24,674 nucleotides of DNA, taken from positions 1 to 24,674 of the IMG/VR virus record IMGVR_UViG_3300045051_000150; one strand, given 5' to 3'. The stretch's first letter is position 1, and each line of letters opens with the position of its first letter. Under the pieces are notes generated by a model that was given only the letters and a program-made list of their open reading frames with translations, made no database searches and was not told the DNA's origin. The position numbers and the translations under genes were made by a program. Shown piece by piece: positions 1,103 through 20,403 of the stretch. The stretch is from a virus.

Positions 1103-1354
1103 TTATGGAGTTGTTACAGCCGGAACTCCCATTACTAAAACTTCACTATCCAAGACAGTCAGGCCATGCCTAGCTAAAATGACAGCCTGGATTGTGGTAA
1201 GGAGATCGGCTAGCAACTGTGCGTTAGTCTGTCCAAATGTAGGCTGCCAATCAAAATTACCTTTGCCTCCACCTTCGACTTGGTATTCTAATCTAAATTT
1301 CATATTCTCAGTTGCATTGGCTGAGTTGGTGGCAACCAAAACTGCATTAGACAT
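1103..1354 (-). CDS. Small protein of unknown function between terminase and portal
   Basis: This 83-residue ORF starts at ATG 1354, which has a strong GGAGG site in the 3' end of the upstream terminase gene and overlaps its stop by 8 bases. A longer frame opening at 1390 lacks this ribosome site and is not preferred. The sequence is mildly hydrophobic, with no transmembrane segment and no recognised domain. A head-assembly or virion-accessory role is plausible from position alone. I do not recognise the family. Confidence 0.7.
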   Translation of the reverse strand: MSNAVLVATNSANATENMKFRLEYQVEGGGKGNFDWQPTFGQTNAQLLADLLTTIQAVILARHGLTVLDSEVLVMGVPAVTTP

Positions 1355-2294
1355 TAGCTGGTACCTCCGACTGTGTTGGAACTCTCCCACCGTATCTTGG
1401 TTCTAGTGGTTTAATGATCGCAGTTCCAGCCTTCATATCAACTGTTCTTACTTTTGAACAGAGGTATTGTAAGGCATCATGAATGTGACTAAAAATATTC
1501 TTCTCGGGATGGGATTTCAGGGTGCCCTGATGATAGGCATACATGTAGCCACCATTGAATCCCTTAATCAAAACCTCACAAGACGGATCTACAAGAAAGC
1601 AGGGTAATCCCCTGACATTATCCTTAAGAAAGTCGATGACAGCAGTTCGTCTCTGCGCTGGAGCGTTGGCCCCGAGATGGATTTGTTTCGCTCTAAGCGG
1701 CTTACTAGTAAGAAGCTTGGTATAAGTTCTGCCATCAGTCCCGACTCGATTTTTGCCTGTAGGATCGACAAACTCTCTAAACTTGGCGCCTGGGAACCAT
1801 TCGTTACTGAGACGGTCAACTTCATAGATGAATCTTTCGGTGTCAATGTCCTCACCTACAGCCTCTCGCAGAATGATTAAGCGAGAGTGTGGGAATAACT
1901 GGGCAAAGATGCAAGCAGGATATAATCCAAAGTCCCAACCTCTGCCGACCACCAGCTGAGGATTCCATCCCAGTGAGCTTTTTGAGACGTGGAACTCAGA
2001 GCCCCACTGATCCTGATAAACAGGCCTGCCATTCAGCGCTTCCCACACTAACTCGTACTCACGCAACCAGTTGGCAGTATCCATGCCAGCGCGAGTTTTC
2101 TCGACCCACTCCTTAGTTCTTTTCTTAGGATCAGCAGTCCTATGCAGCCTAATGACACAGAACCTATTGATAGGATTGTGCCATGTCTTAAGGCCTGTCA
2201 TCACTTCCTCAATTGGTAAGGCCTCAGGAAGTTCTTCTTTAACTTTCCCGAGAGCCTCAACAACTGAGGGCATGTCTAAGGAGCTGATTTTCAT
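1347..2294 (-). CDS. terL: Large terminase, nuclease half (RNase H-like domain)
   Basis: This 315-residue protein corresponds to the C-terminal half of a phage large terminase, which cuts concatemeric DNA during packaging. Three acidic residues fit the RNase H-like metal site: D121 in GWDFG, D177 in FVDPTG and D273 in IHDALQY. Residues 45-100 (VIRLHRTADPKKRTKEW and EYELVWEALNGRPVYQ) match the linker that normally joins ATPase to nuclease. No Walker motif is present; the ATPase is a separate ORF about 1.15 kb upstream. The start ATG overlaps the preceding 25-codon ORF as ATGA and has no clear Shine-Dalgarno site, so translation is probably coupled. The two ORFs together give about 563 residues, a normal TerL length. 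Confidence 0.88.
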   Translation of the reverse strand: MKISSLDMPSVVEALGKVKEELPEALPIEEVMTGLKTWHNPINRFCVIRLHRTADPKKRTKEWVEKTRAGMDTANWLREYELVWEALNGRPVYQDQWGSEFHVSKSSLGWNPQLVVGRGWDFGLYPACIFAQLFPHSRLIILREAVGEDIDTERFIYEVDRLSNEWFPGAKFREFVDPTGKNRVGTDGRTYTKLLTSKPLRAKQIHLGANAPAQRRTAVIDFLKDNVRGLPCFLVDPSCEVLIKGFNGGYMYAYHQGTLKSHPEKNIFSHIHDALQYLCSKVRTVDMKAGTAIIKPLEPRYGGRVPTQSEVPANV

Positions 2295-2368
2295 TTTGGT
2301 TCGAGGAATTTGAAACGCGCTAGCCTATAACGCTTCTGCTCCTCTGTCAGAGAATCCCAATAGCTCAT
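2291..2368 (-). CDS. 25-residue ORF coupled to the terminase nuclease gene
   Basis: This tiny ORF (MSYWDSLTEEQKRYRLARFK...) starts in an ATGA overlap with the lysine-rich ORF upstream and ends in an ATGA overlap with the nuclease ORF. The chain of 4-base overlaps is the main evidence that it is translated. The composition looks like an amphipathic basic helix. It may be a true micro-protein, or a translational relay that carries ribosomes to the terminase nuclease start, which lacks its own ribosome site. Confidence 0.5.
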   Translation of the reverse strand: MSYWDSLTEEQKRYRLARFKFLEPK

Positions 2369-2460
2369 TTCTTTTTCTTGAATTTCTCTTTCTTTTTGTC
2401 AGCCTTGGTTTCTTTATCCTTAGGCTTCTCTGATTTCTCAAAGTTATATTTCTTCTTCAT
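2365..2460 (-). CDS. Lysine-rich 31-residue micro-protein
   Basis: The ORF begins at ATG 2460 with an excellent site (GGAGGATGCT then ATG) and ends in an ATGA overlap with the next ORF. More than half of its residues are lysine (MKKKYNFEKSEKPKD, then runs of K and E), giving a highly basic, low-complexity chain with no hydrophobic core. Such peptides could bind nucleic acid or be a basic tail cut off from a neighbour. I recognise no family. It lies in the segment that separates the two terminase halves. Confidence 0.6.
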   Translation of the reverse strand: MKKKYNFEKSEKPKDKETKADKKKEKFKKKK

Positions 2461-2471
2461 AGCATCCTCCT

Positions 2472-2771
2472 TTATTTGGGAACAGCTAGAATTGCATCAG
2501 TTGGTTTGGCCGGCTCCTTAGGCTGGTCTATGTTTCTTTGCCATTGTAAGTAACCAATATTGAAAGGCCCATATGGAGTGGCCATAGTAAAGCCCCATCC
2601 AGTTATCAAGACTTTCTGAGTCCAGAAGGAGGGACTAACGCCTCCATCAAAGCCTGACTGAAAAGGATAACGCTCAGAGTAACTCCCGTAAGTGCAACCA
2701 CTAAAGATTAATGTTGCTATTATTGACTTTAGGGACCATGATACGCCTAGAGGACTTAACGCTCCCAACAT
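2472..2771 (-). CDS. Putative small exported lipoprotein
   Basis: I chose ATG 2771, which follows GGGAGGAAAG; the same frame is open to 2819. The resulting 99-residue chain opens with LKSIIATLIFSGC, a hydrophobic stretch ending in Ser-Gly-Cys that resembles a lipobox, although the -3 residue is Phe, which is atypical. The rest is rich in aromatic residues and Gly, with no recognised domain. The 5' part overlaps the end of the Fis-type gene by about 70 bases in another frame. A surface, exclusion or lysis-accessory role is possible but not shown. Confidence 0.55.
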   Translation of the reverse strand: MLGALSPLGVSWSLKSIIATLIFSGCTYGSYSERYPFQSGFDGGVSPSFWTQKVLITGWGFTMATPYGPFNIGYLQWQRNIDQPKEPAKPTDAILAVPK

Positions 2772-3090
2772 CTTTCCTCCCACCTTCCAATATTCCAAGC
2801 TGATGACAACGATACTCAAGTGCCCTGCGCGTTGTGCCTAGAAGCTTAGCTGCCTTCTCTCGCTTTCCAAAGGTAGCTCTAAGTGCTTCTACAATATGCT
2901 TCTTCTCAAACTCATTAACTTCATTATGTAAGTTAACTATTGGCGCTGGTGGGATTAACTCATCCCAGTGATGCTCAGCAATTGCATCAAGCTGCGCAAT
3001 CCTACCTTGTAGATATAAAATCCTATAGCCGATCAGATCGGGCTCAGCTATCTCGCTCTGCTCTGTCAGTTCTTCAACTGTTGCTAACAT
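2701..3090 (-). CDS. Small DNA-binding protein with Fis-type helix-turn-helix
   Basis: This 129-residue protein has a clear Fis-type HTH in its C-terminal half (about residues 59-101: EFEKKHIVEALRATFGK, then AAKLLGTTRRALEYRCHQLGI). This domain forms the DNA-binding end of NtrC-class sigma-54 activators and of Fis itself. The N-terminal half is predicted helical and is not an AAA+ domain, so the protein is free-standing. GTG 3093 directly precedes ATG 3090; neither has a strong ribosome site, and the start lies a few bases after the fibronectin gene stop, so coupling is likely. Regulation of late genes or a nucleoid-like role in packaging is inference. Its place inside a terminase operon is odd. 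Confidence 0.8.
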   Translation of the reverse strand: MLATVEELTEQSEIAEPDLIGYRILYLQGRIAQLDAIAEHHWDELIPPAPIVNLHNEVNEFEKKHIVEALRATFGKREKAAKLLGTTRRALEYRCHQLGILEGGRKDVGSVKSSRRIMVPKVNNSNINL

Positions 3091-3097
3091 CACGTTG

Positions 3098-3427
3098 TCA
3101 AGGAGTATAGATGATCACTAGTCCATCAGGTGTTGCTAGCATACAGGCCTCAGGTGACCACGGGCTTATGCCAGAGTCATTGAAGGCATTAACTCGATAG
3201 CAATAAACAACACCAACTTGGACTGTCGTATCTATGTAAGCAGCAGTGTTAGGGCCTGTGGTAGCTATTGTCGTGTAAGCTGTGACTGGCTCAGGGAATA
3301 ACTTTCGCTGGATATTAAAACCCTTCTCATTAGATGAGTTGTCACGCCAAGTTAGATTGACCTGAGCTGCAAGCAAAGGCTGAGCGAGGATGATAAGGAA
3401 ACCAATCGTCAGCATTAAGCGTTTCAT
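3098..3427 (-). CDS. Exported single fibronectin type III domain protein
   Basis: The 109-residue product begins with a typical signal peptide (MKRLMLTIGFLIILAQPLLAA, cleavage probably after Ala-Ala near residue 21). One fibronectin type III fold follows: VNLTWRDNSSNEKGFNIQR is the first strand pair, and YCYRVNAFNDSGISPWSPE is the characteristic Y-x-Y-R-V-x-A-x-N motif. Its AAAGGAG site overlaps the stop of the terminase ATPase ORF, with ATG 12 bases after that stop codon. Phage FN3 domains often sit on virion surfaces, but a Sec signal peptide implies export from the infected cell. A cell-envelope or exclusion role is possible. Confidence 0.85.
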   Translation of the reverse strand: MKRLMLTIGFLIILAQPLLAAQVNLTWRDNSSNEKGFNIQRKLFPEPVTAYTTIATTGPNTAAYIDTTVQVGVVYCYRVNAFNDSGISPWSPEACMLATPDGLVIIYTP

Positions 3428-3439
3428 AGTTGCTCCTTT

Positions 3440-4186
3440 TCATCTAACCTGATCAAAGCAGATTTCTTTGAAGAATCCCTCTTTGGGACTACTGACAAGA
3501 GTGACTTTTCCACCGCCATCAATAGTTGGCTTAGCCGCCATAAATGTTTCTCGAGCTCTTTCCCAGTGCGCAAACTCGTCGAAAAAGAGAGCCGAAGCAG
3601 TATATTGAGCCAATTGTCGGGCGCCTTGAGCCACGCCAAGGATGTAATTGTTAAGTCCTGGTACCTCAAAGTGACAATAAGTCCGTTTGATTCTAGGCTT
3701 AAGCATAACGTCGTCGGGGATATGGTTGTAGATAAACTCCACTCTGTCGATGAGCTCATCTGACTTCTCCTCCTTGTCAGACACGAAGAAGACTGATCGA
3801 CCTTCCTTAAACATCACTAGCCAGAGATGCAAGAAGATGAAGAGCCAGGAGATCATCATACGTCGAGATTTGAACAGAGAGATGAGGTCCTCTTGCTGCC
3901 ACTTCCATGCTGTCCATTGGAGCCAGGGATCACAGGGCATTTGCTTTACTGGGTTTATCTTATCAGCTTCGTCCAAAGTCCAGATGTGGCCGTCCTCAAC
4001 CATCGCCCAAGGATTGTCGAAATAGACCTCCATGTTGTGAGCAATGAAGTCAGCTTTGTTAGTAGCTTGACCCCAGTCGAACTTTGGTGATGGCTGCGGT
4101 TCGCTCGCGAGGATCTTCGGCGCAACAAGGCCCTTATGCCTCTCAGCCGCCTGCGGTCCCAGTATGTCGTCAAGTGCATGACCCAT
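3440..4186 (-). CDS. terL: Large terminase, ATPase half
   Basis: This 248-residue ORF corresponds to the N-terminal packaging ATPase of TerL. The Walker A position holds the arginine-rich form KSRRMMIS (about residues 106-113), the Walker B is ALFFDE (199-204), and the coupling motif is VSSP (231-234). I chose ATG 4186 because it overlaps the terS stop as TAATG; an in-frame TTG at 4201 is the alternative. The ORF stops just after motif III at EGFFKEICFDQVR, where an intact terminase would continue into the nuclease linker. The remainder is encoded at 1347-2294. A bipartite terminase assembled from two polypeptides is the simplest reading. Decay is unlikely because both halves keep their key residues. 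Confidence 0.87.
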   Translation of the reverse strand: MGHALDDILGPQAAERHKGLVAPKILASEPQPSPKFDWGQATNKADFIAHNMEVYFDNPWAMVEDGHIWTLDEADKINPVKQMPCDPWLQWTAWKWQQEDLISLFKSRRMMISWLFIFLHLWLVMFKEGRSVFFVSDKEEKSDELIDRVEFIYNHIPDDVMLKPRIKRTYCHFEVPGLNNYILGVAQGARQLAQYTASALFFDEFAHWERARETFMAAKPTIDGGGKVTLVSSPKEGFFKEICFDQVR

Positions 4187-4911
4187 TATTCTCGGCCCCA
4201 ATCACCAGGCATTTGTCTTGGATCCTTAACCCATTCAAGTTCTTGTGGCTGATCAGTATCAGAAGGAGGAGGTTCTGGAGGGCGCGCTGGTTGATGACTC
4301 CCATTAGAGCCCTCAGCAGCTTCTCTGCGCCGCTTATTAAGTTCTCTGATGACGTCCTCGCCGCTGACAACTCCAACAATCCTTCTCTCGATCTTAGAAT
4401 AACCAGCTGTGTCTAGGATCCTTTCAGCGGCAGCCTTCTGGAGAAACTCAGAGCGAGCTGACCTCATTAGAGTTTTGAGCTTATCAAGAGCTTCATTGCT
4501 CATGCTCTCGGCTCTCTGAACGATGTTGAAATCAGCCTCGGATTCCAACTTAGTCAGCTCTGCCCTGAAAAGAGGTGATGTGGCGACTAGCATCACCGTC
4601 TGCTTATGGATGCCCATTGCTTCAGCTATTTCTACATAAGTAGCTCCTTCTAGAATTCTCCTGAGGATCTCTCTGTGTCTGGGCCGCAGCACCGATGGCT
4701 CCCACTTACCATTACTTTCTAAGGCTTTCTGCTCTTCAGCGGAAAGGGGGCCAGGGAGCTCTTTGTTGGCTGTTGAAAGACCGTCTGCTACTAACTGGTC
4801 TAAGTGGTATTCGTCCGGTTCCCGGACAGATGGTCCTGTCGATTGTGATCTCCCATCTACAACGATTGGCCCGAGTGTCGGTAACGCCTGTGGCAACTTT
4901 TCCATTTCCAA
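4186..4911 (-). CDS. terS: Small terminase subunit (HTH protein)
   Basis: The 241-residue protein has a helix-turn-helix at about residues 80-110 (LEGATYVEIAEAMGIHKQTV), followed by TSPLFRAELTKLESEAD and a long helical region ending in AAAERILDTAGYSKIE. This pattern is typical of phage small terminases, which recognise the packaging site and stimulate TerL. The C-terminus is rich in Pro, Glu and Ser and probably disordered. It is the first gene of the leftward block and overlaps the ATPase gene as TAATG. Two close ATGs (codons 1 and 3) are possible starts. One copy of the 17-bp palindrome lies inside the gene (4812-4828). Confidence 0.82.
   Translation of the reverse strand: MEMEKLPQALPTLGPIVVDGRSQSTGPSVREPDEYHLDQLVADGLSTANKELPGPLSAEEQKALESNGKWEPSVLRPRHREILRRILEGATYVEIAEAMGIHKQTVMLVATSPLFRAELTKLESEADFNIVQRAESMSNEALDKLKTLMRSARSEFLQKAAAERILDTAGYSKIERRIVGVVSGEDVIRELNKRRREAAEGSNGSHQPARPPEPPPSDTDQPQELEWVKDPRQMPGDWGRE
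4812..4828. repeat. 17-bp palindromic site, copy 1 (inside terS)
   Basis: GTCCGG-TTC-CCGGAC is a perfect 6-bp dyad with a 3-bp spacer, flanked by the outer A on one side. In terS it encodes Val-Arg-Glu-Pro-Asp. It is one of five copies of TGTCCGGRAACCGGACA in the window. Confidence 0.9.
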
Positions 4912-14414: not shown

Positions 14415-14733
14415 GAAGGTGATTCCATTTCCTCCAGTTGCAGGTGAGAAAGACACTGGAAATGGGAAGGTGGAAGCTGAGGTTGTTGGCTTTATAGACG
14501 GAGAACCTTTCACTCCTGGTATTTTGAAGTTCCCGAACAAGCAGACCTGGACAAAATTCTGGGGCGCCTTGCAACGTGGAGCTCTCCAAGTGCCAGAGTT
14601 AGAGGTCAAGATGGAGAATGTGCCGCCGACTGAGGCAGAACTCAATGGGCAGGCAGCTCCAGCGCCAGACCCAGAGTTGTTAAAGCACACAACTGACATT
14701 CCAGCAGTGAAGTTCATAGGGAAACAGTCATGA
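14389..14733 (+). CDS. Unknown protein upstream of the Sak4-like gene
   Basis: ATG 14389 follows AAGGAGGTGAT (14374-14384); an in-frame GTG at 14380 overlaps that site and is rejected. The 114-residue product opens with a beta segment (SIIMIFNRKVIPFPPV), has a central FVGFIDGE-like strand pair and TWTKFWGALQRGAL, and a Pro-rich acidic tail. No domain recognised. It ends in an ATGA overlap with the recombinase gene and is probably its partner. Confidence 0.74.
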   Translation: MSIIMIFNRKVIPFPPVAGEKDTGNGKVEAEVVGFIDGEPFTPGILKFPNKQTWTKFWGALQRGALQVPELEVKMENVPPTEAELNGQAAPAPDPELLKHTTDIPAVKFIGKQS

Positions 14734-15536
14734 ACGCGAACTTTCTAGGTTTTGATAGGCTACGAAGAAAGGAGCTATCTTTTGTGCCTACGTTAGATGA
14801 AACAGCTGCATCTGATCCTATCAGGGCAGCGGTGTGGGGAGTGAGTGGCTCTGGTAAGACCACCTTAGCAGGGCTAATGGCGGGCTTCGAGGAATTCCGG
14901 CCTGTTTACTTCGCCGACTGGGATCGGCGTATTGTAAGTTTACGGGCTAGGGTTCCTCGGGAGCTATGGAAATATATCATCTCGGACGTCTACACAGATA
15001 CCAACATTCAAGGAGGAGGTTGGACTGCGTTTGAGGCGAAGATGCAACGGATTGAGTCAGAGGGAGTTAGAACTGTTGTCGTTGATTCTATGACCTTCAT
15101 GCTTATGGGAGTCATGAATAGAGTGCTGATGTTAGATGGCATGAAGCCTTCAACGACAAATCCTCAGTTGCAAAATTACCTCTCTCAGCAGTCCATCGTG
15201 AAAGATACCTTACAGAAGCTATGCTCGAAGAAGATCAATGTCATCTGCACCTTCCACGAGGCCAATGACAAGGATGAGTATAGCGGCAGAACCTTCAAAG
15301 CGTTTGCTATTACAGGCAAACTGACAGAGACCGTCCCTGGCTATTACAATGAGATATGGCACTGTGAGATTGCACCAGGAGCTGCTGGCACTGAGCCTGA
15401 GTATGTTATCAGGACGAAAAGTGACGCAGTTTATATGGCCAGGACTACGTTCAAGTCACTGAAGGCGACAGAGAAGCAAGGGGAAATCTGGCCCAAGATC
15501 ATCGCTGAGATGAAAGGGCTAAAGACAGCAGCTTAA
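14730..15536 (+). CDS. Sak4-like RecA-fold ATPase (AAA_24 type)
   Basis: The 268-residue protein has a Walker A GVSGSGKTT (37-45) and a Walker B VRTVVVDS (113-120, D119). The context is typical of the AAA_24 phage nucleotide-binding family, which includes the Sak4 single-strand annealing ATPases. These proteins work with a phage SSB to drive recombination, and an SSB-like gene lies two genes downstream. Length is normal for the family. The start overlaps the previous stop (ATGA). A RecA-core ATPase with a replicative role is the alternative. Confidence 0.85.
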   Translation: MNANFLGFDRLRRKELSFVPTLDETAASDPIRAAVWGVSGSGKTTLAGLMAGFEEFRPVYFADWDRRIVSLRARVPRELWKYIISDVYTDTNIQGGGWTAFEAKMQRIESEGVRTVVVDSMTFMLMGVMNRVLMLDGMKPSTTNPQLQNYLSQQSIVKDTLQKLCSKKINVICTFHEANDKDEYSGRTFKAFAITGKLTETVPGYYNEIWHCEIAPGAAGTEPEYVIRTKSDAVYMARTTFKSLKATEKQGEIWPKIIAEMKGLKTAA

Positions 15537-15554
15537 AAGAAAGGAGGAAGGAAA

Positions 15555-15764
15555 ATGACAGACAATGATCTAGTGAAGATATTCACTTATCATGCACCAA
15601 AGGCTGAGCAGCCAGCTCAGTATGAGGCGTTAAGGGCAGCCGGACTAGAGTTCGCTAGGAAGATCAACGCGCTGTGTCCTGATTGTAGAGAGCGCTCACT
15701 AGCAGTTACTTCAGTGCAGCAGGCTGTGATGTGGGCTAATGCAGCTAAAGCAATTCACGAGTGA
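15555..15764 (+). CDS. acb2: Acb2-like anti-CBASS cyclic-nucleotide sponge
   Basis: The 69-residue protein matches the Acb2 pattern as I recall it: F-x-Y-H-x-P (IFTYHAPKAEQPAQYEALR), a cPD-x-R-E-x-S-L-A segment (CPDCRERSLAVTS, 41-53) and the terminal QQAVMWANAAKAI (55-67). Acb2 proteins form helical hexamers that bind cyclic di- and trinucleotides and block CBASS defence. The start follows AAAGGAGGAAGG. It lies between the Sak4-like and SSB-like genes in the early region, which suits immediate counter-defence. The call rests on remembered motif similarity only. Confidence 0.82.
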   Translation: MTDNDLVKIFTYHAPKAEQPAQYEALRAAGLEFARKINALCPDCRERSLAVTSVQQAVMWANAAKAIHE

Positions 15765-15794: not shown

Positions 15795-16208
15795 ATGGAC
15801 TTGGATATTAACTTGAATGAGGTAAAGGAAAAGCCTTTACTTCCAGCAGATCGTGAAATGACTATTGCCATCATCAAGGCGGAAGTCAAAATAGCGAAGA
15901 ACGTCAACGCTAAGACAGGGCAGAAAGAGCCTTATGTCAACTGTGAAATGGCTCCTTTGGATCCTGAGTGGGCAGGGCAAGATTACAAGATATATCATGC
16001 CTTTGGATTAACGACAGGCGCGCTATCATCTCCTGACCCGACGTTCTCGATCAAGAAGTTCTTCATTGTCATAGGCCATGATTGGAGGCCAGACGGTAAG
16101 TTCTCGACTGAGGAACTCCAGACACTCAGGTTTATTGGCAAGCTAAAGTATGATGACAAGCGACCGAATTTACCTCAATTAGCGGCAGTCCTGAGAGCTG
16201 CACAGTAA
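15795..16208 (+). CDS. Single-stranded DNA-binding-like protein
   Basis: The 137-residue protein starts after AGGAAAGAAATAAA. It has an OB-fold-like layout: EMTIAIIKAEVKIAKNVN, TGQKEPYVNCEMAPLDPEW, YKIYHAFGLT, and IGKLKYDDKRPNLPQLAAV. The order of an N-terminal E-x-x-x-x-I-I-K-A-E strand, a P-L-D turn and a final F-I-G-K-L-x-Y-D strand resembles phage SSB-type proteins (DUF669-like). Its position two genes after the Sak4-like ATPase fits. No long acidic tail is present. The family call is provisional. Confidence 0.62.
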   Translation: MDLDINLNEVKEKPLLPADREMTIAIIKAEVKIAKNVNAKTGQKEPYVNCEMAPLDPEWAGQDYKIYHAFGLTTGALSSPDPTFSIKKFFIVIGHDWRPDGKFSTEELQTLRFIGKLKYDDKRPNLPQLAAVLRAAQ

Positions 16209-16447: not shown

Positions 16448-17869
16448 ATGGCAGAAGAAGCAATTGCAGTAGAAAACAAAACACCACCTATCAGTATGAT
16501 CAGCTTAAGATCAATCTTGATCCCTGCTGACAGACAACGACAGAAGATCAACGAGGCCAAGTTGAGTGAACTAGCAACATCAATTCAAGCTCATGGCCTA
16601 ATGAATCCCATAGTAGTTTGTCCACTTGATCGTGTCCGGTTCCCGGACGTTCCGCCTCACATCACTTACCAGATCGTCGCTGGCTACCGACGTTACTGCG
16701 CTTACGTCAAACTCAAACGATCAGAGATCCCTGCTACCATGAGGGATGACGTTACTGATCGCTTGGACCAGGAGGAAATGGAACTCGACGAGAACTTGAT
16801 GCGCGAGAACCTATCGTGGCAGGACGAAGTTGTCGCTCGAAAGCGTATCTCTGAGATCAGGGCCAAGAAATATGGAGAAGGCATAAGAGATGTTGCTGAG
16901 CATATTGGTGAGTCCAAATCTGAGGTCTGGGAGGACGTCCGCTTAGCAAAGGCAATGGAAGTTCTACCGGAATTAGGTGAGTCAAAAAATAAAACTCAAG
17001 CTCATAACAAGTTGCGCTTATTGATGAGGCGCCAGGATTTAACTCTCAAAGCTGCTGCGCTGCAGATGGAGGCAGCTAAAGGCACTGATCACCTTGAGGG
17101 TATTGAATTCAAAGTTCACTTAGGCGACTGCTTACAGATCACTAAGAACTGGGTTGATGGTTGCTTACGTTGCGTCATTACTGATCCTCCTTATGGAATC
17201 AACTTGGATGAGGGTGAGACCAAGAAAGGCTCTCCGCATCCAACCATCTATGACGATGCAACTTATGACATAATGGACTTGACTGCTAGAATGGTCAAGG
17301 AGGCTTATCGCCTGCTAGGAGACAACACCCATGCCTACTTCTTCTTCGACATCAAACAGTATCCCAAAGTCTACAAAATGCTCTCAGACGTTGGATTTAC
17401 AGTTGAACCTATCCCACTTCTGTGGGTCAAACCGGGGCCTGGCCAAGTTAATCATCCAGACACTCGGTGGGGTTCAGGCTACGAAGCATGCTTCTTTTGC
17501 CGTAAAGGTAACCGTGCCTTGCTACGGCAAGGGCAATCAAACGTCCTCGCTCATGATCCTGTGCCATCTAATAAGAAAGTCCATCCCGTCGAGAAGCCAG
17601 TTAGTCTCCTTCGGCAACTCATTGAGACTTCAACAGCGCCTGGAGAAACTGTTGCAGATTTCTTTGCCGGGTCGGGATCGCTGGGAGAAGCTGCTATTCA
17701 GACAGGCAGAAATTTTCTTCTATGTGAAAAAGACCCAGCTTACCACGCCGGGATTATTGAGCGACTTAGAAAAGTCCTTGGCGCTGATCCAACTGCCGCA
17801 GTTCAAGAAGCTCCAGCAAGCCCAGCCAGCAAGTACGATCCCTTGGGCGGTGATGAGGAAGATGAGTAA
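16448..17869 (+). CDS. ParB-domain / beta-class DNA methyltransferase fusion
   Basis: The 473-residue protein joins two domains. Residues about 18-165 are ParB-like: LRSILIPADRQRQKINEAKL, AGYRRY (78-83), and ENLMRENLSWQDEVVARKRI, followed by an HTH-like segment (IRDVAEHIGESKSEVWED). Residues about 220-445 are an N4/N6 amino-methyltransferase in beta order: DPPY at 246-249 first, then HPVEKP (379-384) and the SAM loop DFFAGSGS (404-411). Such fusions occur in phages and mobile elements and modify DNA. A 17-bp palindrome lies inside the ParB part (16633-16649). It overlaps the polymerase gene by one base (TAATG). Confidence 0.9.
   Translation: MAEEAIAVENKTPPISMISLRSILIPADRQRQKINEAKLSELATSIQAHGLMNPIVVCPLDRVRFPDVPPHITYQIVAGYRRYCAYVKLKRSEIPATMRDDVTDRLDQEEMELDENLMRENLSWQDEVVARKRISEIRAKKYGEGIRDVAEHIGESKSEVWEDVRLAKAMEVLPELGESKNKTQAHNKLRLLMRRQDLTLKAAALQMEAAKGTDHLEGIEFKVHLGDCLQITKNWVDGCLRCVITDPPYGINLDEGETKKGSPHPTIYDDATYDIMDLTARMVKEAYRLLGDNTHAYFFFDIKQYPKVYKMLSDVGFTVEPIPLLWVKPGPGQVNHPDTRWGSGYEACFFCRKGNRALLRQGQSNVLAHDPVPSNKKVHPVEKPVSLLRQLIETSTAPGETVADFFAGSGSLGEAAIQTGRNFLLCEKDPAYHAGIIERLRKVLGADPTAAVQEAPASPASKYDPLGGDEEDE
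16633..16649. repeat. 17-bp palindromic site, copy 4 (inside the ParB-methylase gene)
   Basis: TGTCCGGTTCCCGGACG keeps the full GTCCGG-N3-CCGGAC dyad and encodes Val-Arg-Phe-Pro-Asp in the ParB domain. If the fusion protein binds this site, it may affect its own gene. Confidence 0.9.
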
Positions 17870-20403
17870 TGCCAACAGTTGAATGTCCACCAACTATCAA
17901 TCCTGGAGCTTTAATCACCTTCATCGGTGAAGCTCCTGGAGGTCAGGAGGTTTCTTGGCATGAGTGCCCCAGATGTAAAAGAGGAATTAACTACCCAGGA
18001 CTTTGTAAAGATTGTGGTGCCCCTCGCATCCACCACCCTCAAGGTTTCGTGGGAGGGTCAGGCAATCTACTTCGAAAAGCATGTAGAAATGCTAACATCA
18101 ACTTTGATGGCTGCAATCGTTCCAATGTATCAAAGCGCCGTCCTCCAGGAGATAACTTTAGCGTTTTCTACAAAGATCCCAAGCGACGTAGAGAACCGAC
18201 GGAAGAGCTCCTTTGGTGGCGTGAACTACTTTTGGCGGAACTCCGACGGTACAGGCCCAACGTCGTGGTTGCTCTCGGTAATGAAGCTCTTAAGACTTTA
18301 TGCCCAGGCGCCGACGGCATCACTAAATGGCATGGAAGTATCCTTACTAGCCCAGTTGTTGACGGACTTAAAGTCATACCCGCCCTACACCCAGCATACA
18401 TAATGAGGGATAATTGGGAGTGGTATTACATACTAATCAGACAACTCAAGCGCGTCGCAGTTGAATCAACCGCTCCTCGTATCCTTCAGAAGGAGCCAGA
18501 AGATGTCTTTGTCATTGCACCTAGATTGGAAGAAGTCGTTGGGTTTCTCCGGTTTATTGGTAGTTCCAAAGAGCCGTGGACACTTGATGTTGAAACTGTC
18601 GGTGACACGCTACGGTGCTTTGGACTATCGAGTTATGCCAAGCCACAGTACGCTCTCTGCGTCCCTATTCAGAAAGCGTCTGGCCCAGCATGGAGTGTGG
18701 TGGAAGAGAGTATCGTTTGGCGAGAACTCAGCCTTGCTATGCAAGCGAATACTCTACTTGAGAATCAGAATATTATTTATGACCTTGATTACCTCTTGGA
18801 CTACGGTGCAGAGCCAGGAGGGATCAACTTCGATCCAATGCTCGCAATGAATGTCGCTTATCCTGAATTTGATAAGGGACTAGATTTCACTACCATGCTT
18901 TACACCTTCTATCCTTACTACAAGGATGAGGGAAAGACCTGGAATAAGAAAGAACCTGATGAGAAAACTTTCACCTACAACTGTAAAGACATGGTGGCAA
19001 CTCCAAGAGTCGCGCAAGCAATCAAGAGGGATCTCAATGAAGCTGGACTCACAGAATGCTACAGAAAACGAGTTAATCGTCTGCTACCAGTCGCTCTTGA
19101 AATGCAACGGAATAGATTACGTCTCGATCGCAGTTGGCATGAACGACTGGGCACTATCCTTAAAACTGAGCGAGAGTTGCGACAGCAAGAGCTTGATAGA
19201 ATTACTGGGAGAGCAATCAACGTCAAATCTACTCCTCAAATCGCTGCTCTTCTATATGAAGAACTTCGGCTTCCTGTCAGAAAAAAGAGAGGCTCAGATG
19301 CTATCACAACCGACGAAAATACACTTAGAGAACTCAGGGCGGGTCATCCTAATATACCACAACTGAATATGATCCTAGAGATCAGGCATCTTAGAACGAA
19401 AGAGAGTAATTATATCAATGTGGACTTTGATACTGATAGTGATGGTGAACACTATCTCGGCTACATGGCTTGTGTTAGTGTTGCTAAGTCTGGGAGGTGG
19501 GCGTTTAAGCAAAGCCCTAAATGGCGCGGTTCTTCACCTCAGACTATCCCAAAGATTATGCGACTCATGTACAGTCCGCCACTACATTCAGTCTTTTGGC
19601 AGCGAGATCTTAGCCAGGCTGAGGCTCGCATTGTTGCTTGGCTTTCTGATTGCAAGTTTCTCTTGTCTGTTTTTGCTTCTCCAATTAAGATCCACAAGGT
19701 CGTCGGTGGCGCCATTTTCAGAAAGCTGCCCAATGAGATCGAGTCCGACTCCCAAGAGTATGACATTGCTAAGCGAGTAGTCCATGCTTACAACTACATG
19801 ATGGAGTATAAGAAACTAGCAATAACTGCCAACGTGCCATTTGACTTTGCAAGGATGACCTATGACCAGTACGCCAGACAAGTCCCAGAAATCCCTCAAT
19901 GGTGGCAGTGGACAAAGCAAGAAGTCCTCTCAAAAGGACGTCTTGTTACACCTATGGGAAGGGTTAGACAAACTTATAAGGCGGCATCCGCTCTCACCAA
20001 CACAGGCCAGATGCCTGATGAAGTACTTAGAGATTTGGTATCTTACGTACCGCAATCCACTGTCCCAGACGTCCTCAACGAGTCAATGTTTGAACTCTGG
20101 GAAACCTGCCCCTGGGTCAAGTGGCACCAACAAGGTCATGATTCTTTCCTTGCGAGTGGCCCTCCCGAGCGGACTGAGGAGTTCTTTCAGCGTTCTGAAG
20201 AAGCTGCAGGGAAAGTCCATTTTACTATCCATGGAAAAGACTGCCATATCCCAGGGGAGTTCCAGTGGGGCTACAGCTGGGGAGCAATGCTGGCGTATAA
20301 GGTCGGCGAAGACGTTTCCTATGAGGCATGGAAAGAGCGAGCAACTCGAGAAGGTTGTTTTAAGGAAGAGAAAATAAAAGAACGATTACTGTCAATGGCT
20401 TAA
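17869..20403 (+). CDS. UDG / 3'-5' exonuclease / family-A DNA polymerase fusion
   Basis: The 844-residue replicative polymerase has three domains. Residues 1-200 form a family-4-like uracil-DNA glycosylase: GEAPG (20-24), GFVGGSGNLLRKA (59-71), KRRPPGDN (89-96) and HPAYIMRD (174-181). A zinc-ribbon-like insert (CPRC...CKDC, 33-49) splits the first two motifs. Residues about 220-400 are a proofreading exonuclease with D240-x-E242, D305 and Y370...D374. The rest is family-A polymerase: motif A RDLSQAEAR (D580), motif B around K635/Y643, motif C GHDSF (D758). Motif B has His and Met where Phe and Gly are usual, and motif C has HDS rather than HDE. Confidence 0.92.
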   Translation: MPTVECPPTINPGALITFIGEAPGGQEVSWHECPRCKRGINYPGLCKDCGAPRIHHPQGFVGGSGNLLRKACRNANINFDGCNRSNVSKRRPPGDNFSVFYKDPKRRREPTEELLWWRELLLAELRRYRPNVVVALGNEALKTLCPGADGITKWHGSILTSPVVDGLKVIPALHPAYIMRDNWEWYYILIRQLKRVAVESTAPRILQKEPEDVFVIAPRLEEVVGFLRFIGSSKEPWTLDVETVGDTLRCFGLSSYAKPQYALCVPIQKASGPAWSVVEESIVWRELSLAMQANTLLENQNIIYDLDYLLDYGAEPGGINFDPMLAMNVAYPEFDKGLDFTTMLYTFYPYYKDEGKTWNKKEPDEKTFTYNCKDMVATPRVAQAIKRDLNEAGLTECYRKRVNRLLPVALEMQRNRLRLDRSWHERLGTILKTERELRQQELDRITGRAINVKSTPQIAALLYEELRLPVRKKRGSDAITTDENTLRELRAGHPNIPQLNMILEIRHLRTKESNYINVDFDTDSDGEHYLGYMACVSVAKSGRWAFKQSPKWRGSSPQTIPKIMRLMYSPPLHSVFWQRDLSQAEARIVAWLSDCKFLLSVFASPIKIHKVVGGAIFRKLPNEIESDSQEYDIAKRVVHAYNYMMEYKKLAITANVPFDFARMTYDQYARQVPEIPQWWQWTKQEVLSKGRLVTPMGRVRQTYKAASALTNTGQMPDEVLRDLVSYVPQSTVPDVLNESMFELWETCPWVKWHQQGHDSFLASGPPERTEEFFQRSEEAAGKVHFTIHGKDCHIPGEFQWGYSWGAMLAYKVGEDVSYEAWKERATREGCFKEEKIKERLLSMA

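Follow-up and report, generated by a model that had tools for sequence, protein, structure and literature searches.

A 69-residue viral protein of the Acb2/Tad1 hairpin family, predicted to be a cyclic-oligonucleotide sponge, carries alanine in place of a conserved pocket arginine

The window analysed here is the entire virus-only record of 24674 bases. Direct reading identifies on its + strand a 69-codon open reading frame with its ATG at 15555 and a stop codon ending at 15764, and with a clear ribosome-binding site in front of it; the reading frame is real. The features at and around this locus are as follows.

14730..15536, + strand: upstream neighbour, Sak4-like AAA_24 ATPase, given for context only (phrog_124, E 7.1e-19)
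15541..15547, + strand: Shine-Dalgarno-like AAGGAGG, 7 bases 5' of the ATG (direct reading)
15555..15764, + strand: Acb2/Tad1-hairpin protein (PF24729, phrog_1454) of 69 aa, predicted cyclic-oligonucleotide sponge (profiles, predicted fold)
15588..15590, + strand: Y12 codon; Y12 corresponds to the Tyr that stacks on the base (T4 Y8, PaMx33 Y11; profile alignment)
15633..15635, + strand: R27 codon; R27 is basic like its counterparts T4 K23 and PaMx33 K26 (profile alignment)
15687..15689, + strand: R45 codon, aligned with PaMx33 R67 and with the CRE-motif Arg in Tad1 (profile alignment)
15741..15743, + strand: A63 codon, aligned with the Arg that contacts cGAMP (T4 R79, PaMx33 R85; profile alignment)
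15795..16208, + strand: downstream neighbour, 137-aa protein matching no family
16448-17869, + strand: fusion of a ParB N-terminal domain with an N6/N4 DNA methyltransferase, downstream (profile match)
17869-20403, + strand: single reading frame with a uracil-DNA-glycosylase domain (8-182) and DNA polymerase A (427-780), downstream (profile match)

The sequence-only reading of this stretch had placed an Acb2-like protein at the locus on the strength of three motifs, and both the reading frame and the motifs (F10-T-Y-H-A-P15, P42-D-C-R-E-R-S-L-A50 and A57-V-M-W-A-N-A63) are present. At the place of the first motif the characterised Acb2 proteins have GYKPHT (T4) or GYRDLS (PaMx33), and at the place of WANA they have WACR or AIIR. 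F-x-Y-H-x-P and WANA are signatures of the phrog_1454 branch described below and not of characterised Acb2.

The 69-aa protein matches the PF24729 Acb2_Tad1_hairpin profile with 71 bits (E 9.6e-20, residues 11-64 on positions 1-55 of 58), against a curated cut-off of 27 bits, and the same model gives 71.4 bits for T4 Acb2 (Vs.4) and 66.1 bits for PaMx33 Acb2. Its best PHROG is phrog_1454, a family without assigned function (75 bits, E 5.9e-21), and phrog_717 is absent among its PHROG matches at E<=1. Both T4 and PaMx33 Acb2 have phrog_717 as their best PHROG (∼1e-32), and T4 Acb2 reaches phrog_1454 only at 7e-4. An NCBIfam search with the 69-aa protein returned no match. Because the protein belongs to phrog_1454, whereas T4 and PaMx33 Acb2 fall in phrog_717, these profile assignments place it as a superfamily member on a branch separate from strict-sense Acb2.

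In profile-profile comparison the PaMx33 family is matched over residues 12-67 (56 columns, E 1.9e-6) with a score of 34.7; 60 shuffles of the columns scored no higher than 18.2, and the reversed profile scored 12.7. The alignment to PaMx33 Acb2 is gapless from R45 onward. The T4 family is matched only weakly (E 0.002, probability 14). The branch core, CRExxxAxTxxxxAxMW, matches the Tad1 profile with an E of 4.6e-8 over 23 columns, whereas the PaMx33-type Acb2 set matches that profile at only 0.01 and the T4-type set at 4e-4. The C-terminal core of the 69-aa protein is accordingly at least as similar to Tad1 as to Acb2 in these comparisons, and since it matches Tad1 better than the PaMx33-type and T4-type sets do, the phrog_1454 branch links Acb2 and Tad1. 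A profile of 21 members searched against the PDB found 9ptq, 'Acb2 homolog 43', at E 0.006 and Tad1 at E 0.026; T4 and PaMx33 Acb2 were not reached at E 0.1. Homolog 43 is likewise short (76 aa) and aligns with a P-x-G-R-E-K-S motif; it differs in having Lys at the A63 place of the alignment, and the match is weak. A literature search found no paper on this homolog.

Relatives are widespread in phages. A scan of viral contigs found 58 loci encoding relatives, with up to 58% identity when matched over most of the length, and among sequenced phages 195 records match at E<=0.01, mainly phages of Mycobacterium, Paenibacillus and Gordonia. Among the matches listed, most phage relatives are named hypothetical proteins and some phosphomannomutase; the latter name is attached to several Paenibacillus phage homologues (H25-H34, H37-H40) and is very probably wrong for a protein of ∼70 aa. 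A genome scan with the alignment gave seven loci of 47-54% identity, spread over Lysinibacillus, Metasolibacillus, Paenibacillus and a Bryobacterales MAG, which are too distant to name the host of the virus, and a genome scan for the Sak4-like neighbour gave no match. None of the papers searched names PF24729, phrog_1454 or Acb2_Tad1; Acb2-like genes, of this or another PHROG, have already been annotated in Microbacterium and Mycobacterium phages (PMC13348362, PMC11953737).

The branch alignment comprises 46 rows, namely the 69-aa protein and 45 of the 58 loci; left out were identical or similar sequences (L013, L020, L025, L031, L035, L043, L045, L051, L052) and defective ones, namely L047 with an in-frame stop, L055 with ∼16 codons deleted in the hairpin, L057 with a frameshift, and the partial L058. 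The first three of these, out of the 58 relatives, look broken, either through errors in sequencing or perhaps because the gene was lost under pressure of the Panoptes type; such loss of acb2 is described in PMC12657218. The comparison sets consist of 67 distinct PaMx33-type peptides (from 80 loci kept of 308), 29 of 31 distinct T4-type peptides (from 35 loci, with L175 and L178 excluded as frameshifted) and 31 distinct Tad1 rows, 95-160 aa in length (48 matches shorter than this were dropped).

Structure prediction by AlphaFold2 with 46 aligned sequences gave a model with pLDDT 90.7 and pTM 0.77, used in place of a poor single-sequence prediction (pLDDT 63.5). The model consists of a short N-terminal helix (3-11) and an antiparallel hairpin of two long helices (20-40 and 45-68), with no strand. 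The helical hairpin, whose absence the sequence-only reading had named as grounds for abandoning its proposal, is thus present. A short N-terminal helix followed by two long helices is the Acb2 protomer topology as described in PMC12043709 and PMC10419184, and the predicted fold corresponds to it. Foldseek returned 35 PDB matches at E<=10, none convincing and the best of them unspecific. The PDB fold search placed Tad1 (7uav; Z 5.1, rmsd 3.0 over 45 residues) amid unrelated helical bundles and listed no Acb2 chain, and is uninformative for such a hairpin. This outcome can be expected for the fold and is not counted against membership.

The residues of the ligand pocket and of the hexamer interface were compared across the three sets of 46 branch members, 67 PaMx33-type and 29 T4-type sequences. 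According to Jenson et al. (PMC10097602), T4 Vs.4 holds cGAMP by Y8, H11, K23, R79 and F82; its hexamer interface is made up of L29, A66, A73 and A77, and the three alanines are required for hexamers and for cGAMP binding. The branch alignment has 14 invariant columns. The equivalents of the three interface alanines (A50, A57 and A61) are each Ala in 46/46 members. Y12 is Tyr in 44 of the 46, as are its equivalents Y8 and Y11 in 29/29 T4-type and 67/67 PaMx33-type sequences, and R27 is invariant (46/46), with Arg in place of the Lys of K23 and K26. R45 is Arg in 43/46; the same place, R67 in PaMx33, is Arg in 61/67 PaMx33-type sequences and in 27/31 Tad1 rows (CRE motif), and is mostly another residue in the T4-type set (Arg in 2/29). 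In PaMx33 Acb2, R67 contacts the trinucleotide.

The pocket differs at A63, which is Ala in all 46 members and is occupied by Arg in 29/29 T4-type and 67/67 PaMx33-type sequences and by Lys, followed by Arg, in 31/31 Tad1 rows. The basic residue gripping the dinucleotide is thus kept in every sampled sequence of Acb2 (Arg) and Tad1 (Lys). P15 occupies the place of T4 H11, and A66 (Ala in 45/46) that of T4 F82, at which PaMx33 types also have Ala (66/67). P15, E46, W60 and N62 are invariant across the 46 members and form signatures of the branch itself. Positions 55 and 67 covary, with E/R in 34 members, D/R in 2, Q/I in 9 and R/C in 1, these counts being inflated by related sequences. One reading of the E55/R67 pairing is a salt bridge; another is that R67, a turn of the helix further on, stands in for the Arg that was lost. 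The 69-aa protein and eight relatives constitute a Q55/I67 subtype having neither the salt-bridge pair nor the later Arg, and K65 occurs in the 69-aa protein alone (1/46).

Measured against individual systems, the protein resembles PaMx33 Acb2 (Pseudomonas phage; phrog_717; PDB 8h2j, 8ixz) in PF24729 membership, in having a short N-terminal helix and two long helices, and in the register of the Tyr, of the basic residue at the K26 place and of the Arg at R67; it differs in length (69 aa compared with 93), in PHROG, in having A63 where PaMx33 has R85, and in the invariant residues peculiar to its branch. With T4 Acb2 (Vs.4; phrog_717; PDB 7uq2) it shares an equal PF24729 score, the interface alanines and the MWA core, whereas T4 has a longer inter-helix loop, and R79 and F82 are replaced by Ala and H11 by Pro. 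The Acb2-like assignment of the sequence-only reading therefore holds for the PF24729 hairpin family and the fold, and does not extend to the phrog_1454 membership, the Tad1-like core and the missing pocket Arg: it recognized the hairpin family correctly, and the name Acb2 is too narrow.

The gene and both of its neighbours lie on one strand, and a PD-(D/E)XK nuclease gene also lies upstream. The upstream neighbour is Sak4-like, as had been proposed from sequence; the downstream gene, proposed to be SSB-like, has no Pfam, PHROG or NCBIfam match at E<=1, leaving that part of the proposal unproven. The position between these genes had been taken as a pointer to early expression. Linkage was examined in 49 of the 58 viral records (omitting L013, L020, L025, L035, L045, L051, L052, L057 and L058), most of which may be fragments. 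A Sak4-like AAA_24 gene occurs in 8/49 records, SSB in 7/49 and RecA in 0/49. The sponge gene lies within 3 kb of the Sak4-like gene in 2/8 records (L001 and L009, which have parts of the same gene order) and within 3 kb of SSB in 0/7, the nearest being 3.1 kb away, and in most records the gap to these genes is no smaller than at many random places. A terminase control (PF03354) matched only 2/49 records and was not useful. Other relatives sampled have differing neighbours, some of them tail, regulator or nuclease genes. Linkage to a recombination module as a family trait is accordingly rejected, the Sak4-like and SSB genes being mostly distant in relatives, and since the module position is not conserved it says little about timing or function; the argument for early expression is confined to this genome and the two that resemble it most.

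Adjacency to recombination genes is seen elsewhere in the superfamily. In Bacillus phage SPG24 (NC_030903.1) a Tad1 gene lies between annotated SSB and UvsX-like recombinase genes, in phage f2b1 (MN940411.1) a Tad1-like gene precedes RecA, and in Arthrobacter phage Racecar (MN234206.2) a short Acb2-like gene follows a RecA-like gene. These arrangements are not a trait of the branch of the 69-aa protein.

Elsewhere in the window, a large terminase on the - strand is apparently split (1347-4201). The segment 3440-4201 matches the terminase large subunit, and 1347-2294 looks by eye like the remainder, with no PHROG match at 1e-3. Two other reading frames lie between the parts, one of them by eye a secreted FnIII-like protein, and the region 1347-4201 has no Rfam match.

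The explanation that we consider probable is a hexameric sponge for cyclic oligonucleotides that keeps trinucleotide binding and has weakened dinucleotide binding or changed its specificity. By analogy with Acb2, from which the hexamer, ligand binding and an anti-defence role are carried over, the working form would be a hexamer of three-helix protomers, for which the interface alanines are conserved. The hexamer would bind cyclic oligonucleotide alarm signals of CBASS, and perhaps cA3 of type III CRISPR, tightly and without cutting them. Such a sponge would act stoichiometrically, and the suicide effectors of the host would remain off during phage replication. A preference for trinucleotides is suggested because R45, the equivalent of PaMx33 R67, is kept and the Arg of the dinucleotide pocket is replaced by Ala. 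Binding of cyclic trinucleotides would thus be retained, that of dinucleotides would be weakened or altered in specificity, and the former is favoured as the safer prediction from the residues present.

A broader activity is a real possibility, although we lean against it: the protein may be equivalent to PaMx33 Acb2 and bind both di- and trinucleotides, with another residue making up for the lost Arg; R27 is one candidate, and R67, a helical turn further along, is another in those members that have it. The retention of Y12 and R27 argues for such an equivalence, as does the combination of Arg67 with an acidic residue 55 in 36/46 members (34 E/R, 2 D/R); against it, the 69-aa protein and its eight Q55/I67 relatives (9/46) lack the compensating Arg67, and K65 is peculiar to this one protein. 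Rather unlikely, and put forward only tentatively, is that phrog_1454 constitutes a third branch of Acb2/Tad1 sponges, lacking the basic residue that grips dinucleotides and dedicated to trinucleotides or to an undescribed signal. It is improbable that the hairpin protein was repurposed to serve the phage's own recombination or replication and plays no part in anti-defence. Its gene directly follows a Sak4-like gene in a replication/recombination module, and some Tad1-like and Acb2-like genes adjoin SSB, UvsX or RecA genes, but the distances in relatives and the tail, regulator or nuclease genes beside some of them speak against such a role, as do the nearly invariant ligand-facing residues. 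A Tad1-like function, sequestering the Thoeris signal gcADPR, is suggested by the shared hairpin core and is very improbable, since Tad1 of Bacillus phage SBSphiJ7 and its relatives has an N-terminal beta-sheet domain that is missing here (142 aa in SBSphiJ7 compared with 69, the model being free of strands), the Lys-Arg that follows the Tad1 core is lacking, with Ala at the place of the Lys, and the gcADPR pocket lies partly in loops outside the hairpin according to a review (PMC12043709).

The 69-aa protein is a real and unexceptional representative of an anti-defence superfamily that is already known, and the absence of the pocket Arg throughout its branch is the notable part. If phrog_1454 is a third branch in the sense given above, the Q55/I67 subtype would be its most extreme case, lacking also the possible replacement Arg, and its sponges could go unnoticed by guards of the Panoptes type, which monitor dinucleotide depletion; Panoptes, as described in PMC12657218, turns the dinucleotide binding of sponges into a trigger. 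The success or failure of nucleotide-signalling defences depends on sponges of the Acb2/Tad1 fold, and a widespread branch having the Arg of the trinucleotide side without the Arg of the dinucleotide side would naturally separate the two sites.
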